Shown: piece after piece, positions 17,434 to 24,943 of the stretch
Numbering within the stretch: position 1 is the stretch's first letter
Layout of the letters: each line of letters begins with the position of its first letter
DNA from: Emcibacter sp.
Lineage (GTDB): Bacteria > Pseudomonadota > Alphaproteobacteria > Sphingomonadales > Emcibacteraceae
Direction of reading: 5' to 3'
DNA: 43,913 bases
NCBI GenBank assembly: GCA_021774875.1
Contig: JAJFIP010000047.1
Coordinates: 1 to 43,913 of the forward strand
Translations under genes and position numbers: made by a program
Notes under the pieces: model-generated
Databases searched by the model: none
Told to the model about the DNA's origin: nothing
The model's input: only the letters and a program-made list of their open reading frames with translations

Positions 17434-20175
17434 TTATAGCTGCCAATAGGACAGGTCACTGACCGGGCCAGCATCGAGCCCGACAAAGTTACCGCTTGCG
17501 GCCATCATGCCTTCCAGTGGCAGTTGTGGGGCATATCCGGCATGAAGCGCACGGGCAGATGGGCTTGCGCCAGTTTTATAGTCAATGATGCTGTAGCTGC
17601 CGTCATTTAAACGGTCAATACGGTCGGCCTTGGCAGTCAGGGTAAAAGCTCCGCCGGGCAGATCAAATACCTGAGTGGCTTTGATTTCCGTTGCCACTGT
17701 TTTTGAGCTCACGCGGCGTTTTTCTTCTTCTTCCACAAACCATTCAGCCACATGAATGAAGCGTGGCCACCAGAAGGCCCGCACTGTTGGCCGATCGAGA
17801 TATGCTTCAAATTTCTTCCGGCCTGTTTTGATTAGCTCCTCAGCCGCAGCGGGGGGCAGATGATCAGAATATTTGCCCATAAATTCATCCAGCGCATCAT
17901 GAATGATCGTGCCTTTATCCGCCGCACCGGGATCGGCATCCAGCGCATCGAGAGTCTTGAGATTCAGGATATAGGCCGCATAAATACTATAGGGATCCTG
18001 CATCCATTTCTGAATTCGGGTCACCGACAGCTTGCGGGGCCGGACCGATACGGGTGGTGATGGCTTCGGCGGTCTAATCTTCTGGGTCTCGGCAGGCTGA
18101 TCCAGTGCGCGGTACCAGTCGAGCCACTGGATCATATCCGTGGCCTGTGCAATCTCCGGGGCGATGGCGTCCATGCGGCTTAACCAGCGGGATTTTACCG
18201 TCGGGGTTCCTTCAATCTTTTCTGATCGGGTAAGAACCACCTGAGCTGCCGATGCGGCCTGAACAAAATCATGGGCGCTCAGGCCGATTTTCCGTTCCAG
18301 TGATGGCAGGCAGAAATCCTTCCGCATGGGACGGCTCATCCACGGGTCAGGCACCGGGTCAGGCGGCCAGCTTCCCTCATTCAGGGATGCCAATATTACA
18401 AGATCGGCCTGCTGAAGACGGGCTTCCAGCGGTGACCAGATATTGAGCCGGGGATGCAGGCCATATTTGGGTCGAACGGTGATGCTGGCCATGAAAACTT
18501 CCAGCAAGGCCGGATAACTATCTGATTTGAGTAGGGGCAGTTTCGGGGCTGCAAGATGTAAATCTTCAATCAATTTGGCCGCCGCCTCACCCGCATCACC
18601 CTGCCATAACCGCTCCGGTCCGGTCCGATCATCAGATGCGCAGAGGCTTTCCGCCATTCGCACATGGCTGATCAGCAAGTCTTCAAAGGAGGTCTGTGGC
18701 TGCCCCATGACCTTTTCGAACGGTGTGATTAGATCGCTGAGCCCTTGCCACCAGTCTTTCAGGGTGTTTTCCCCGGAAGCTGTGTTAATAGCCCGACTAA
18801 GTCCCTGGCAGCCCGCGCCCGGACGCGGCCCGCGCAGAATTTTTTCTTCCAAAATCCGTGCCATTTTGCGAAAGCTTCCCACGTCTTGCCCCCTGGCGGC
18901 AAGCGGATGCTTCAATACAGACAATAATGCCACTGGTGCCAGCCCCTCGCCGACCATCTGCGCGGTTAACCTCAGGAACACTCCGGGCGGGCTGTTTGAT
19001 AACGGGGTTCCAGCACTGTCATCAACATTCAGGCCCCAGCGTTCCAGCTCACCCGCCACTCTACGGGCCAGCTGTCGGTCCTGGGTAACCAATGCAGCAG
19101 TCTTGCCCTCTGTCTCCAGCACTTCACGTAGCATGAGCGCAATCATTCCGGCCTCTTCGCGGGGTCCGGGCGCCTCCAGCCGGATGAAATTGCTGCTGGC
19201 TTGTTCAAGGTCCAGATCAAGACTACGCCAGCAATCAGTTGTTTCCGCAGGGCGCATCACTTCCCGCAGCAGATGATCCCGTGTTGACGGCTCTGCCCCT
19301 GTTGCATTCCAGCTTTTTACCTGATCCCGACCTGCACCGATAGCCGCCAGCAGATTTTTCATGGTCGCCTGCGGGTGAGTATCATCCAGAAGTTGCCAGC
19401 TTGTCTCGTCCATGGCAAGATCCAGTCCGGGCAATACGACCATGCCCTTTGGCAGGCGGGAAATGACTGAAAGCAATTTTGCTGTAGCTGGAATAGAGCC
19501 AGTTGATCCGGCGGCAATTATCGGATGTCTGGGCGGGTTTTCAAGCCATTTCTCCCGCAAGCCGCCCAGAAGAATATTGCGCCGTGCCGCCACATCGGAA
19601 TATCCGGTGGCCGCCAGAATATCCGGCCAATGTTCAGTCAGTATTTTCAGAAAATCCAGTGTCTGCTGCCAATGAGCCGCATATTCCTCAGGGACAATCT
19701 TTTCCAGATCCTTGAAATCCAGCTGCTCGGTCTGTACATGATCCAGAAACTGACCCAAAGAGTGAGCAAGCAAGGCACATTGGGCAGATTCAGGTGGCTC
19801 CTCCCGACGCCTGCCATACCAGCCGGATATTATTTCCATCAACAGCATTTGCCGCATATGGGGTGGAATAGGCGGGGATAATTCCATATCCCAGGTCGCT
19901 TGAGGCAGATTTCCCGACAAAAGAAGATCATCCTCATCCACATCACCAATCGGCTCTATCCGTGGCAACAAAAGGGACTTGCCCCCCACTTCACTGAGAA
20001 AAGCATCCCGCAACGCACGCACGGCCCGCCGGTTGGGTAACAGAATAAGCACATCACTTAAATATAGGGGATCATCACCAAACCGGGCCCGGATACCCTG
20101 TACCAGTCCCGCTACAAATGATGTATGGGGGGGAATCGTATAAAGTTCCGGTGCTTTTTTCAGTCGCCTTGGCAT
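17434..20175 (-). CDS. addB: Double-strand break repair protein AddB, shortened by an in-frame TAA
   Basis: The second AddAB subunit, an inactivated-helicase plus RecB-like nuclease protein. The 913-residue reading frame has LILLPNRRAVRALRDAF in the N-terminal part, a nucleotide-binding-like region without a full Walker A, GPREEAGMIALMLREVL, and LASLNEGSWPPDPVPDPWMSR. The nuclease core DPGAADKGTIIHDALDEF and SIIDYKTG lies just before the end. It stops at SYWQL with TAA, while 84 more codons of AddB-like sequence continue in the same frame; together they give about 998 residues, the usual size. The start ATG 20175 (PRRLKK) is preferred over the longer frame from 20223. It overlaps the end of the murU part by 16 bases. 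Confidence 0.88.
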   Translation of the reverse strand: MPRRLKKAPELYTIPPHTSFVAGLVQGIRARFGDDPLYLSDVLILLPNRRAVRALRDAFLSEVGGKSLLLPRIEPIGDVDEDDLLLSGNLPQATWDMELSPPIPPHMRQMLLMEIISGWYGRRREEPPESAQCALLAHSLGQFLDHVQTEQLDFKDLEKIVPEEYAAHWQQTLDFLKILTEHWPDILAATGYSDVAARRNILLGGLREKWLENPPRHPIIAAGSTGSIPATAKLLSVISRLPKGMVVLPGLDLAMDETSWQLLDDTHPQATMKNLLAAIGAGRDQVKSWNATGAEPSTRDHLLREVMRPAETTDCWRSLDLDLEQASSNFIRLEAPGPREEAGMIALMLREVLETEGKTAALVTQDRQLARRVAGELERWGLNVDDSAGTPLSNSPPGVFLRLTAQMVGEGLAPVALLSVLKHPLAARGQDVGSFRKMARILEEKILRGPRPGAGCQGLSRAINTASGENTLKDWWQGLSDLITPFEKVMGQPQTSFEDLLISHVRMAESLCASDDRTGPERLWQGDAGEAAAKLIEDLHLAAPKLPLLKSDSYPALLEVFMASITVRPKYGLHPRLNIWSPLEARLQQADLVILASLNEGSWPPDPVPDPWMSRPMRKDFCLPSLERKIGLSAHDFVQAASAAQVVLTRSEKIEGTPTVKSRWLSRMDAIAPEIAQATDMIQWLDWYRALDQPAETQKIRPPKPSPPVSVRPRKLSVTRIQKWMQDPYSIYAAYILNLKTLDALDADPGAADKGTIIHDALDEFMGKYSDHLPPAAAEELIKTGRKKFEAYLDRPTVRAFWWPRFIHVAEWFVEEEEKRRVSSKTVATEIKATQVFDLPGGAFTLTAKADRIDRLNDGSYSIIDYKTGASPSARALHAGYAPQLPLEGMMAASGNFVGLDAGPVSDLSYWQL

Positions 20176-21872
20176 ATTTTTTCCACCTTTTCCCGGGCAT
20201 CCGGCGTACCCACATGAAACCATTCGCCGTCATGAATGATCCCTGATAACCGCCCCCTTTTCTCAGCCTGATCAAATTGTCGGCGCAGTGAAAAGACATC
20301 TTCTGTCGTATCTGTAAAACAATCAGCTTTCATGATCAGGATGCCGCCGTAGACATAATCGGCTTGTCTGTCACTGCCACGGGCAGTCAGGCGTCCGTTA
20401 TCATCCCGGTGATAGTCCCCGGCTGCTGAATAACCAAACGCCTTGTCTCGGGGCACCAGCAGCATCAATATATCCATCTTGTCCGCCTGCCAGAAAGATT
20501 GCATCCCATGTAGCATCTGACGTGAACCATCCCGCCAGATCATGTCACTATTAAGAAGCAGGAAAGGTTCATTGCCCAGATATTTCAATGCCTTTTTCAC
20601 TCCGCCGCCGCTGTCCAGAAGCTGTTCGCGTTCGTCTGACAAAGTAAGTGTCAGACGGTGATCATAATATTGGCTGGCAAATTGTTCCACCTGTTCTGCC
20701 AGATAATGGGTATTAATGACCACATCACGCACCCCGGCACAGCAAAGACCATCCAGAGAATAAGAGATCAGTTCTTTTCCCGCGACGGTGATCAATGGTT
20801 TGGGACAATGATCGGACAGGGGCCGCATACGTTTGCCAAGTCCCGCTGCAAGTATCATGGCTTTTTGTGGCATGAAGACCGTGGGCAGGAAAGGTTGCGT
20901 GCGTATTTCAGGTGAAATATGAGCATCCATCCACTGCCTGATGGTCGCCAAAGCCGGATGTTGCAGATTTCGGTTCAACAAAGACCATACTCTGGGGATT
21001 TTATCAAGATATGTGGCCTTGCCGTCCCGCAGGCACAGCCGGGTAAAAATACCGATGATCTTGGCATTTCGCTGGACACCAAGGATAGCATAATCACGGC
21101 GGAATTTATCCTCCTCCGCCCCGGTTGTCTTGATATAGCTGGTGAGCATTTCCTGTTCCAGTGCGGGCGACACATCGCGTCTGGCATCCTGAAGTAGAGA
21201 GACAAGATCATAGGCTTTATGACCAATAGTTGCGTCCTGAAAATCCAGAAGACCGAGCCGCGCAAGGCCATCCTGCTCTGACCGGAGCATCATATTTTCC
21301 GCATGGTAGTCCCTTAATGTCAGACAATTAATGTCATTGGTTACCCATGATAATATCTCCTGCCACAGGCTCAGGAAAACTTCCCTGTCCTTATCCGCCA
21401 AAGGTTTTCCGCTTAACGCAGGCAGATACCAGTCAACGAACAGGCCCAGTTCTTCAAGCAGTAATTCCGCATCATAGCGAGGAATATCTGTTGGCGGGAC
21501 GGCATCCTGCAGATAAACAAGACCGTCTATAGCCAGCTGGTAAAGCATATTTTCCCGTGTTGGATCATCTTCTATCACCCGCGCGAACAGATCGTCCCCC
21601 AAATCTTCCAACAGCAAAAATCCATTGTCAATGTCACTGGCCATCACAAAGGGGGCGGCAAGCCCAATCGCTTGCAGATGGTGTGCCACGGCGACAAAAG
21701 GACGAACATCCTCAAACAGCGGCGGAGCATCCATTAATATGGCACTCTCTTGCCCCCGCTTCAGGCGTTCATATCGACGGAAAGAAGCATCATCAGCCAG
21801 CGGGCTTCTCACTGCTTCCCCCCAGCCATGTTGTTTGAGAAATTCTATACTAAGACGCGTACGATCATTCAT
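20160..21872 (-). CDS. Fused N-acetylmuramate/N-acetylglucosamine kinase (AmgK) and N-acetylmuramate-1-phosphate uridylyltransferase (MurU)
   Basis: One continuous 570-codon frame. Residues 1 to about 330 are an aminoglycoside-phosphotransferase-like sugar kinase with the substrate loop DDASFRRY, the catalytic RDYHAEN (187-193) and the metal motif LLDFQDA. Residues 334-570 are a sugar nucleotidyltransferase with LAAGLGKRMRPLSDHCPKPL, the metal-binding LLNSDMIW and a C-terminal WFHVGTPD. In the cell-wall recycling pathway AmgK phosphorylates MurNAc at C1 and MurU converts it to UDP-MurNAc, bypassing fosfomycin-sensitive MurA. Most Alphaproteobacteria keep these as two adjacent genes; here no stop separates them. 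An internal ATG (20871-20873) lies at the junction without a clear ribosome binding site. The gene overlaps tsaE by 8 bases and addB by 16. Confidence 0.9.
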   Translation of the reverse strand: MNDRTRLSIEFLKQHGWGEAVRSPLADDASFRRYERLKRGQESAILMDAPPLFEDVRPFVAVAHHLQAIGLAAPFVMASDIDNGFLLLEDLGDDLFARVIEDDPTRENMLYQLAIDGLVYLQDAVPPTDIPRYDAELLLEELGLFVDWYLPALSGKPLADKDREVFLSLWQEILSWVTNDINCLTLRDYHAENMMLRSEQDGLARLGLLDFQDATIGHKAYDLVSLLQDARRDVSPALEQEMLTSYIKTTGAEEDKFRRDYAILGVQRNAKIIGIFTRLCLRDGKATYLDKIPRVWSLLNRNLQHPALATIRQWMDAHISPEIRTQPFLPTVFMPQKAMILAAGLGKRMRPLSDHCPKPLITVAGKELISYSLDGLCCAGVRDVVINTHYLAEQVEQFASQYYDHRLTLTLSDEREQLLDSGGGVKKALKYLGNEPFLLLNSDMIWRDGSRQMLHGMQSFWQADKMDILMLLVPRDKAFGYSAAGDYHRDDNGRLTARGSDRQADYVYGGILIMKADCFTDTTEDVFSLRRQFDQAEKRGRLSGIIHDGEWFHVGTPDAREKVEKICQGD

Positions 21873-22359
21873 AGAATATATTTTCCCCTAATCTTGTCTG
21901 CCACGGGCTTTCCCCGATTATTGTCAGTTTTCGTGTCCGGCCATCGGCCAGGATTTCCAATCGTAAAGTGAGAAAGCCCGCTGGTAGGAAGCTGCCTAAT
22001 TTTGCCGGCCATTCAATCAGACTTACCGCAGTATCGAAGGCCTCCTCGATGCCAAGTTCAATGGCTTCTTCCGGGTGGCGCAAACGGTACATATCCATAT
22101 GCCACACGGTCGGGGTCGTCTGATCATCACATGCAGGTTCATAGATCTGTACCAGTGTGAATGTGGGGCTTGGCACTTCATCGGTGTAACCTAACGCATG
22201 GATTATTGCCCGGCATAATTCGGTCTTTCCTACCCCTAACGAGCCATCGAGGGCCACCACATCCCCCCTTTTCAGTAGCGGCGCAAACCGGGCGGCAAAT
22301 TCTTTGGTCGCGGTCAGATCATTTAGTGTAACTTCTGCAAGTAATTCCTGCCCCGGCAT
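21865..22359 (-). CDS. tsaE: tRNA t6A37 biosynthesis ATPase TsaE
   Basis: ATPase that works with TsaB and TsaD to make the threonylcarbamoyl modification on A37 of tRNAs reading ANN codons. The 164-residue protein has the P-loop GSLGVGKTELCRAII, the family motif EVPSPTFTLVQIYE, HMDMYRLRHPEEAIELG and LIEWPAKLG. The frame is open to an upstream start at 22401 inside divL, but ATG 22359 comes one base after the divL stop and gives the normal N-terminus. Its TGA overlaps the amgK-murU start by 8 bases. The tsaE-amgK-murU order is conserved in many Gram-negatives. Confidence 0.95.
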   Translation of the reverse strand: MPGQELLAEVTLNDLTATKEFAARFAPLLKRGDVVALDGSLGVGKTELCRAIIHALGYTDEVPSPTFTLVQIYEPACDDQTTPTVWHMDMYRLRHPEEAIELGIEEAFDTAVSLIEWPAKLGSFLPAGFLTLRLEILADGRTRKLTIIGESPWQTRLGENIFYE

Positions 22360-22360
22360 A

Positions 22361-24856
22361 TTATTCGCTTGCCACGCTGATCTGGTCTTCCATACCGACA
22401 CGGATTGGCAAAATTATTGTGATACTTGTGCCAACATTCAGGTTCGACTGAACTTCTATCTTACCGCCGTGCAATTCGACAAAGCTCTCTACCAGTGACA
22501 GGCCAAGACCTGCCCCCTGATCGGTGAGCGCATTGCTTCCAGTAAAAAATTTTTCAAAAACACTGTCAACTTCTTCAGGTTTTATGCCGACGCCGCTGTC
22601 TTGAACACTGATCATGTAATTCAGATTATCCTGAGATACAATCAGTCTTATGGAACCAAGGCTAGGCGTGAATTTTACTGCATTACTGAGCAGATTATAA
22701 ACGGTGTGCTGAATATGCTTGGCGTCTCCCCAGACCGGCACCAGTTTTTTCGGGCAGTTCAGAGTCATATCTATTTCTTTTACCCTAATCCGCTCTTGCA
22801 TCTGAGCGATCACCTGCTTCATCACATCTGGCAGATTAAACTCGCCAACATCAAGGGTCAGTCCACCCGCTTCAATAACCGACAAATCAAGAATATCGTT
22901 AAACAGCTCCAGCAACTGCCCCGAGGCAGAAAGAATACTATGCATATAGTCATGCTGAACATCGTTCAGTGGCCCCTGATATTCCTTTTCCAGTAATTCA
23001 GAAAACCCAATGATACTATTCAGCGGCGTACGCAGCTCGTAGGACATATGGGCAAGGAAGTCAGTCTTGATTTTATCGGCTTCCTCCAATGCCTGGTTTC
23101 GCTGCCGTAAAACCCGCTCAATGGCAAAGCTGTCGGACACATCAATGAAGGTAATCAGCATGGCACCGTCAGGCAGGGGGACAGCAGAATAATTGAGCAC
23201 ACTATTGTCCTGCCGCTTTAACTGACCCGATGATAATTCTTTTTTCACTTCCCCGCCGACAATCAGATCTTTCAGTTCCCTTATCTGATCGCTGCTGCCA
23301 AAATTGTCGGCACAGGCATCCATCACATCCATGGTGTGGGGGTTTGCATCCAGCATGTCATGATCCAGTTTCCAGATCTCGGCAAAAGCCTCATTATATA
23401 ACTGGAGACAACCGTCAATGCCAAACACCGCCAGTCCCTCATGCAGGTTATTCAGAGTTTCCTTTTGCACTGCAAACAGGGTGTTATAATCCCTCTCAAG
23501 TGCAAAATGGTCGGTAACATCCTCATAAAATATCAGCAGCCCGCCCAGCGGGTGAGGTTGGCTGACCACCCGCAGAGACGTATTATCCGGCAGATGCCAC
23601 ATTTCCTCCACCGGCTCCAGAAGCTGGGTATAGGCTTCGAGCTGCCCGGCTTTCCATTCAGGGAAATTAGCCTGTTCAGGTAACCTGCGGGCCTCGCGCA
23701 TGGCTTCCAACACCTCGCCGTGATGAGGATGACTAAATAATAATCCTTCCGGCAAATGCCATAGGCGACTGAAGGCGCTGTTATAATATTCCAGCCGTTT
23801 GCCAGAGGTAAAAATAGCCACAGCCGTCGATAGTTTATTCAGAGTTTCCGAATGGGATTCCGTATGATGAATGAGTTCGCCCCGGATTTTTTCAAGATCC
23901 GTTATATCCTGGGCATAACCCATGTAGCCCATTCGGTTGTCTCCAATCTGCATGGGGGCATTATGAATATTAACCGCCCGCCGCTCACCCTGAATGACAA
24001 CAAAATGTTTTTCACTGTTGTTTTCGTTAATTTCTCTTGAAATGGCAGCAATATCCTGTGCGTTTTTGCCGCTAGAGCTGGCAACCAGTTCCAACCCGTC
24101 TGAAATAACCTGGGCAGCATTTGTCCCATCCACAGCCTCGACATAGGCTTTATTCACCATCATTAATTTCAGATTTTCGTCCCGCACCCACAGAGGGAAC
24201 CTGATCAAGTCGCCAGCTGTTTCATAAAACTTTAACCGACTGCTTATACCCCTCGCATCCTTACCCTGAAAGGTGGCCATATTTTCCTCAGCCGTGGCCT
24301 CCCGAAACCGGACTACATACCCCTTGGCACTGTTACCATCCAAGAGCGGTTCACCCTTGGCCACTATATTTCTTTTTGACAATGGCAGGAAGAACCGCTG
24401 GCGAAAGTCCTCACCATGAGCCAGGAGTTTATCAATATTTGCTGTCAAGTCATCAAATTGATCATCAGAGAACGCCACATCATGCTGACGTAAACAATCC
24501 AGCTCCTCGTCCGCGCCGTCTATACCGAACCATTGCTTTACTTCATCCAGTGATAATAGCTTCCCGTCTGTATCCCAGGCTAGCGAAACGCCATTTTGAG
24601 ATTTCAGCAACAGGGATTGCATATGAATTTCCCGCTCGGCCAGATTTAAGCTGTATTTAACTTTTCTCCGGTCCCAGACCATCCAGAAAATCAGACACAG
24701 GGTCAGGAAAAGAAACACTCCCAAGTATAAAATCTGCCCATTGTCAGGATTAACGGGAATCAGGGGTGCCGCAAATAAAGGCACAGTACCGCCAAATATT
24801 ATGGCGGCTAAGAGTGCCAGTGTCCCTCTTGCTAATTTTAACGGCCAGATGACCAT
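22361..24856 (-). CDS. divL: DivL-type cell-cycle sensor protein (PAS domains plus tyrosine pseudo-histidine-kinase)
   Basis: An 831-residue membrane protein. Two hydrophobic segments near the N-terminus (about 10-30 and 42-62) precede several PAS-like modules between about residues 90 and 580, for example around MGYAQDITDLEK, LIFYEDVTDHFALERDY and LITFIDVSDSFAIERVL. The dimerisation motif reads HMSYELRTPL: Tyr (residue 606) replaces the phospho-His, the hallmark of DivL, which in Caulobacter modulates CckA and senses the state of DivK. The ATPase domain keeps the N box LLSNAVKFTP, DSGVGI and GAGLGLSL. ATG 24856 follows GGAAGG; an ATG at 24892 would add 12 residues. It heads the tsaE/amgK-murU/addBA cluster, as in other Alphaproteobacteria. 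Confidence 0.88.
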   Translation of the reverse strand: MVIWPLKLARGTLALLAAIIFGGTVPLFAAPLIPVNPDNGQILYLGVFLFLTLCLIFWMVWDRRKVKYSLNLAEREIHMQSLLLKSQNGVSLAWDTDGKLLSLDEVKQWFGIDGADEELDCLRQHDVAFSDDQFDDLTANIDKLLAHGEDFRQRFFLPLSKRNIVAKGEPLLDGNSAKGYVVRFREATAEENMATFQGKDARGISSRLKFYETAGDLIRFPLWVRDENLKLMMVNKAYVEAVDGTNAAQVISDGLELVASSSGKNAQDIAAISREINENNSEKHFVVIQGERRAVNIHNAPMQIGDNRMGYMGYAQDITDLEKIRGELIHHTESHSETLNKLSTAVAIFTSGKRLEYYNSAFSRLWHLPEGLLFSHPHHGEVLEAMREARRLPEQANFPEWKAGQLEAYTQLLEPVEEMWHLPDNTSLRVVSQPHPLGGLLIFYEDVTDHFALERDYNTLFAVQKETLNNLHEGLAVFGIDGCLQLYNEAFAEIWKLDHDMLDANPHTMDVMDACADNFGSSDQIRELKDLIVGGEVKKELSSGQLKRQDNSVLNYSAVPLPDGAMLITFIDVSDSFAIERVLRQRNQALEEADKIKTDFLAHMSYELRTPLNSIIGFSELLEKEYQGPLNDVQHDYMHSILSASGQLLELFNDILDLSVIEAGGLTLDVGEFNLPDVMKQVIAQMQERIRVKEIDMTLNCPKKLVPVWGDAKHIQHTVYNLLSNAVKFTPSLGSIRLIVSQDNLNYMISVQDSGVGIKPEEVDSVFEKFFTGSNALTDQGAGLGLSLVESFVELHGGKIEVQSNLNVGTSITIILPIRVGMEDQISVASE

Positions 24857-24943
24857 GAACCCTTCCACAGACGTTAACGTGGATATAATCATAGACTATC
24901 GGCATAAAAAAGGAAGCCTGTTATATCTGGTCGATTCAGAAAA

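Follow-up and report, generated by a model that had tools for sequence, protein, structure and literature searches.

A single reading frame in the window (the whole stretch of 43,913 nucleotides of Emcibacter sp. DNA that was analysed) was found to join an AmgK-type kinase to a MurU-type uridylyltransferase. Judging from the sequence, this fused gene very probably specifies a single bifunctional enzyme for the anabolic, Pseudomonas-type recycling of MurNAc, which would convert MurNAc to UDP-MurNAc. The parts of the gene are listed below.

20160..21872, minus strand: fused amgK-murU gene of 570 codons plus stop, with an ATG start and no internal stops.
20883..21872, minus strand: AmgK-type MurNAc/GlcNAc-1-kinase domain, residues 1-330, with homology to 3csv over residues 10-313.
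20868..20936, minus strand: linker, residues 313-335, in frame and the least conserved stretch.
20871..20873, minus strand: junction ATG, Met334.
20163..20867, minus strand: MurU-type MurNAc-1-phosphate uridylyltransferase domain, residues 336-570.

The Pfam models APH and NTP_transferase matched residues 23-247 (84.9 bits, gathering cut-off 23.2) and residues 337-485 (64.6 bits, gathering cut-off 21.2), respectively. Among the NCBIfam models, the best name for residues 56-324 was AmgK (NF045698), with 285.4 bits; because this score lay under the equivalog cut-off of 500 bits, the kinase was filed as an AmgK-type homologue and was not given the formal equivalog name. The top NCBIfam model for residues 339-564 was MurU (NF045697, an equivalog_domain model), at 205.9 bits and under its cut-off of 370. 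When PDB sequences were searched with phmmer, the kinase part (10-313) was best matched by the Silicibacter protein 3csv, which is aminoglycoside-phosphotransferase-like, and the C-terminal part (336-566) by Pseudomonas MurU (8hhd/4y7t). An AlphaFold model of the fused protein, calculated from an alignment of the window protein with four fused relatives (three in full, one partial) and 42 separate proteins, each an AmgK or a MurU, had a mean pLDDT of 93.7 and a pTM of 0.87. Foldseek with this model returned 3csv with a TM score by target of 0.90 and MurU entries with 0.90-0.93. The high pTM suggests that the kinase and MurU domains may hold a fixed mutual arrangement. The first-pass annotation had placed AmgK and MurU in one 570-residue frame; this was confirmed by the Pfam, NCBIfam and PDB matches and by AlphaFold/Foldseek, and its domain limits (1-330 and 334-570) agreed with ours to within a few residues.

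The conservation of the residues expected in the two active sites was counted over 37 fused and 73 separate rows of an alignment of relatives.

21294..21317, minus strand: LRDYHAEN, residues 186-193, which we take to be the catalytic-loop motif of the phosphotransferase fold, with Asp188, Asn193 and, for the classical His, Leu186; conserved in relatives.
21234..21245, minus strand: DFQD, residues 210-213, presumably the kinase metal-binding motif; D210 is present in 37/37 fused and 73/73 separate rows.
20799..20843, minus strand: GLGKRMRPLSDHCPK, residues 344-358, assumed here to be the nucleotide-binding signature of a sugar nucleotidyltransferase; G344, R348 and K358 are invariant in the 37 fused and 73 separate rows.
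20544..20546, minus strand: Asp443 (in LNSD), where we expect a metal ligand; Asp in 37/37 fused and 72/73 separate rows.
20214..20216, minus strand: His553 (in WFHVGT), where we expect the second metal position and PaMurU has Asp; His in 36/37 fused and 58/73 separate rows.

The position of Leu186, which is His in the classical APH motif, was Leu in 36 of the 37 fused rows (the remaining one having a gap) and in 67 of the 73 separate rows. Since the departures at Leu186 and His553 are common to most relatives, both sites are intact in the alphaproteobacterial sense. The statement of the first-pass annotation that both active sites look intact thus held against alphaproteobacterial relatives, with these two residues departing from the Pseudomonas or textbook motifs. 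Together, the N-terminal part combines the APH fold (Pfam, the 3csv match) with the catalytic and metal-binding Asp of an AmgK (D188, N193 and D210 are conserved), and the C-terminal part combines the nucleotidyltransferase fold with the GxGxR...PK signature of a MurU and an Asp following LN.

It was considered that an assembly or sequencing artefact, that is, a missed stop or a frameshift, had united two genes, given that the assembly is fragmented (398 contigs) and that the two genes usually lie side by side without being joined. However, a match crossed the junction in one open, stop-free frame in 27 of the 32 genomes of the source family (Emcibacteraceae), at 49-100% identity. These genomes were assembled separately and include the single-contig genomes G011, G017 and G019; chance or assembly error is thereby ruled out, so that an artefact is practically inconceivable and the suspicion of a frameshift or missing stop at the junction was removed. 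Two further genomes (G009 and G007) carried pieces of the fused gene at contig edges only, and three (G001, G002 and G005) gave no match to it at E 1e-30. Separate amgK and murU genes were seen in none of the 32 family genomes, and the join is fixed in this family. In seven pairs of relatives, dN was 0.07-0.31 against a dS of at least 0.31 in both domains (one value being saturated), so that purifying selection acts on the kinase and the MurU domain alike. In addition to the fused gene, G017 has another AmgK-like gene, which stands alone without MurU (44% identity; L098 1501-2511, minus strand).

The first-pass annotation had also allowed that an internal ATG at the junction might release a separate MurU, and such a protein could accompany the fusion product or even be the main product of a genuine fused frame. 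The ATG at 20871-20873 is indeed in frame, and Met occupies this position in 11 of the 37 distinct fused rows; but it is absent from the other 26, and upstream of the window ATG there is no purine-rich Shine-Dalgarno sequence (duplex energy -2.6). A scan of the junction for promoters and terminators found none. In the 25 codons that precede the first MurU strand, an ATG or GTG was present in 26/37 fused rows compared with 68/70 separate rows, and the median best anti-Shine-Dalgarno energy was -2.7 in the fused and -5.5 in the separate rows (Mann-Whitney p 2.6e-7, with kinship among the rows ignored). Because start codons are less frequent and anti-Shine-Dalgarno energies weaker in the fused rows, selection for keeping a separate MurU product is unlikely, and translation of MurU from the junction ATG is highly improbable. 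Met334 is probably a relic of a former murU start. The linker in which it lies (23 codons) showed 43-78% identity in the seven pairs of relatives, compared with 64-88% in the domains.

The pathway partners encoded in the same genome were consistent with MurNAc recycling by a single fused enzyme. AnmK was present (281.5 bits, cut-off 24) and MurQ was absent from the genome (32.7 bits, cut-off 302; the assembly is 99% complete), which is the combination of the Pseudomonas-type route. A candidate for MupP was found divergent to glmU.

L138 1474-2154, minus strand: HAD phosphatase, MupP candidate.
L138 2273-3613, plus strand: glmU.

The candidate scored 109.6 bits with the MupP model (cut-off 359) and higher, 198.3 bits, with a phosphoglycolate phosphatase model (cut-off 225); by its position beside glmU, it is likely MupP. 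In C. crescentus, the locus tags of MupP (CCNA_02390) and GlmU (CCNA_02389) adjoin, as do those of AmgK and MurU, according to PMC13046382 and PMC11980594. PMC13046382 assigns the separate alphaproteobacterial AmgK and MurU homologues of C. crescentus to this recycling route, and PMC9790009 indicates that the separate homologues of A. tumefaciens probably belong to it too. Since AnmK and the MupP candidate are present and MurQ is missing, the MurU route is expected in the source genome, and the placement of the fusion in the fosfomycin-bypass route by the first-pass annotation was upheld to this extent.

The fused protein might instead be a bifunctional kinase-nucleotidyltransferase for a different sugar, such as another hexosamine or a hexose. 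The APH-type and nucleotidyltransferase folds also serve other sugars, and the scores of both domains under the NCBIfam equivalog cut-offs for AmgK and MurU (285 vs 500 and 206 vs 370) count against the MurNAc assignment. On the other hand, it is MurU itself that gives the C-terminal domain its top structure matches, AnmK and the MupP candidate are encoded in the genome, and a congener (G005) has a MurQ-NagA-NagK set; a different sugar therefore appears improbable. For the MurNAc enzyme, we infer catalytic activity of both domains, the identity of the substrate and a single product. The N-terminal kinase would phosphorylate MurNAc, and perhaps GlcNAc, at C1; the C-terminal domain would transfer UMP from UTP onto MurNAc-1-phosphate, and the resulting UDP-MurNAc would join peptidoglycan synthesis downstream of MurA.

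The neighbours of the fused gene in the window were as follows.

21865..22401, minus strand: tsaE (Pfam TsaE 121.7 bits; TIGR00150 98.2 bits, cut-off 60.1), overlapping the fused gene by 8 bases.
17434..20223, minus strand: addB of the alphaproteobacterial type (TIGR02786 973 bits, cut-off 486.5); its true start is probably at 20175, as comparison with the sequence of G005 suggests.
22361..24892, minus strand: large sensor histidine kinase of the PAS type, immediately upstream of tsaE, an arrangement also found in G005.

The histidine kinase has no obvious link to recycling. The join probably arose in the conserved tsaE-amgK-murU-addB operon, where a minor frame or stop mutation would have removed the boundary between the adjacent genes, whose stop and start overlapped or abutted; the fused gene would then have been inherited, and lost in one congener, as a single unit.

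That congener is G005, which belongs to the same genus and is 94% complete. In it, tsaE and addB are separated by a single base and the fused gene is missing (L164, G005:C9:213000-219000, around 304-306); the histidine kinase is conserved, as is the gene upstream of it. G005 retains AnmK and also encodes a MurQ of full length (342 bits with NF003915, cut-off 168), whose gene adjoins those of NagA and a NagK-type kinase (murQ-nagA-nagK, L171) away from the tsaE-addB site. This cluster is the catabolic, E. coli-type route, and its occurrence without the fused gene is what a role of the fused protein in MurNAc recycling would predict; the swap thus fits the proposed role. Among the 32 family genomes, MurQ was found in nine, namely in 2/3 of those without the fused gene and 7/29 of those with it, and an exchange of one for the other over the family was not significant (p = 0.18). 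As 7 of the 29 genomes with the fused gene also have MurQ, the two routes are not mutually exclusive, and because G002 and G001 are just 74% and 62% complete, only G005 is a clean loss. In G011, which has kept the fused gene, about 5 kb separate MurQ from an additional copy of AnmK (L172, G011:C1:3880000-3898000), suggesting an added recycling cluster.

Relatives with both domains were also found outside the family. A concatenated tree of 110 rows contained 73 separate and 37 fused rows; 10 repeated loci, whose kinase-bearing frames were identical to retained ones, were left out of these counts. G031 (L096), in which MurU alone passed the 60-bit threshold though the match crosses the junction, was excluded from the 37. 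In 3 of the 73 separate rows, amgK and murU were far apart; at separate loci a murU start codon was often present 4 bases short of the amgK end. The view that the two domains are normally separate adjacent genes was thus supported, and the proposed search for further fused kinase-transferases yielded them in the source family and in scattered genomes beyond it. Among the matches listed for the order sample (296 genomes), single two-domain frames occurred in at least three genomes of family f4, at least one of family f2 and at least two of family f5; among those listed for the class sample (385 genomes), they occurred in at least five scattered genomes. Full-length matches with one internal stop were rejected as adjacent separate genes sharing one frame. 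No relative of the fused protein was found in viral contigs; 163 plasmid records had a match, all of them below 60% identity, the best 10 of the 163 being inspected.

The 26 fused rows of the source family formed one group (SH-aLRT 94). At least seven changes between the fused and separate labels were needed on the tree, and strongly supported branches force only two of them; owing to long branches, the placement of several scattered fused rows is unsure. More than one origin of the AmgK-MurU join is likely.

The upstream neighbour tends to fuse as well: TsaE was found in one frame with AmgK at 16 of 18 loci (L143-L160), corresponding to 13 of 15 distinct genomes, as L158-L160 repeat the genomes of L143-L145; this proportion is not a frequency, since the loci were picked partly for long frames. 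At L145/L160 (G826, a distant alphaproteobacterium), TsaE, AmgK and MurU share one 792-codon frame, which was confirmed with NCBIfam models. A 748-codon frame at L065 was dismissed as a triple fusion because its N-terminal 164 residues are, by eye, unlike TsaE, and the long frames in G850, G927, G770 and G804 proved to be TsaE-AmgK with MurU in another frame. More speculatively, and at rather long odds, the tsaE-amgK-murU operon could be a repeated fusion hot spot in which several independent welds in Alphaproteobacteria gave a rigid enzyme that passes MurNAc-1-phosphate from the kinase to the uridylyltransferase and is gained or lost as a whole, trading places with the MurQ route.

The kinase resembles AmgK (P. 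aeruginosa PA0596; C. crescentus CC_3535/CCNA_03649) in its phosphotransferase fold, its place in the pathway and its position next to murU, but it is covalently linked to MurU and scores below the NCBIfam equivalog cut-off. The C-terminal half shares its fold, nucleotide-binding signature and place in the pathway with MurU (8hhd, 4y7t; P. aeruginosa PA0597; C. crescentus CC_3536/CCNA_03650), from which it differs in being a fusion domain and in having His553 for the Asp of PaMurU, a His that most separate alphaproteobacterial homologues share. The TsaE-AmgK fusions also unite neighbours of the same operon; however, they join AmgK to its other neighbour and, the triple fusion apart, leave MurU separate. 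GlmU likewise performs two consecutive steps of UDP-sugar synthesis in one protein, but with a different chemistry (acetyl transfer, then uridylyl transfer) and a different pairing of domains.

The founding paper on AmgK and MurU reportedly dates from 2013. A natural AmgK-MurU fusion was not mentioned in the open-access literature searched, including the accessible parts of PMC13046382, PMC5371407, PMC5371409, PMC13041923, PMC9790009 and PMC11980594. As far as this literature was searched, the arrangement is new, and the chemistry and the pathway are known; the typing of one MurU model as equivalog_domain by NCBI hints that databases already know MurU within longer proteins. The fused protein could be used to ask whether MurNAc-1-P is channelled, its gene may serve for one-gene synthesis of UDP-MurNAc and for labelling with MurNAc probes, and the fusion may help in studying why neighbours in the same operon fuse repeatedly. 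If the bifunctional reading is true, these bacteria would possess a naturally occurring enzyme that carries out the fosfomycin-bypass step in the recycling of the cell wall with a single chain.
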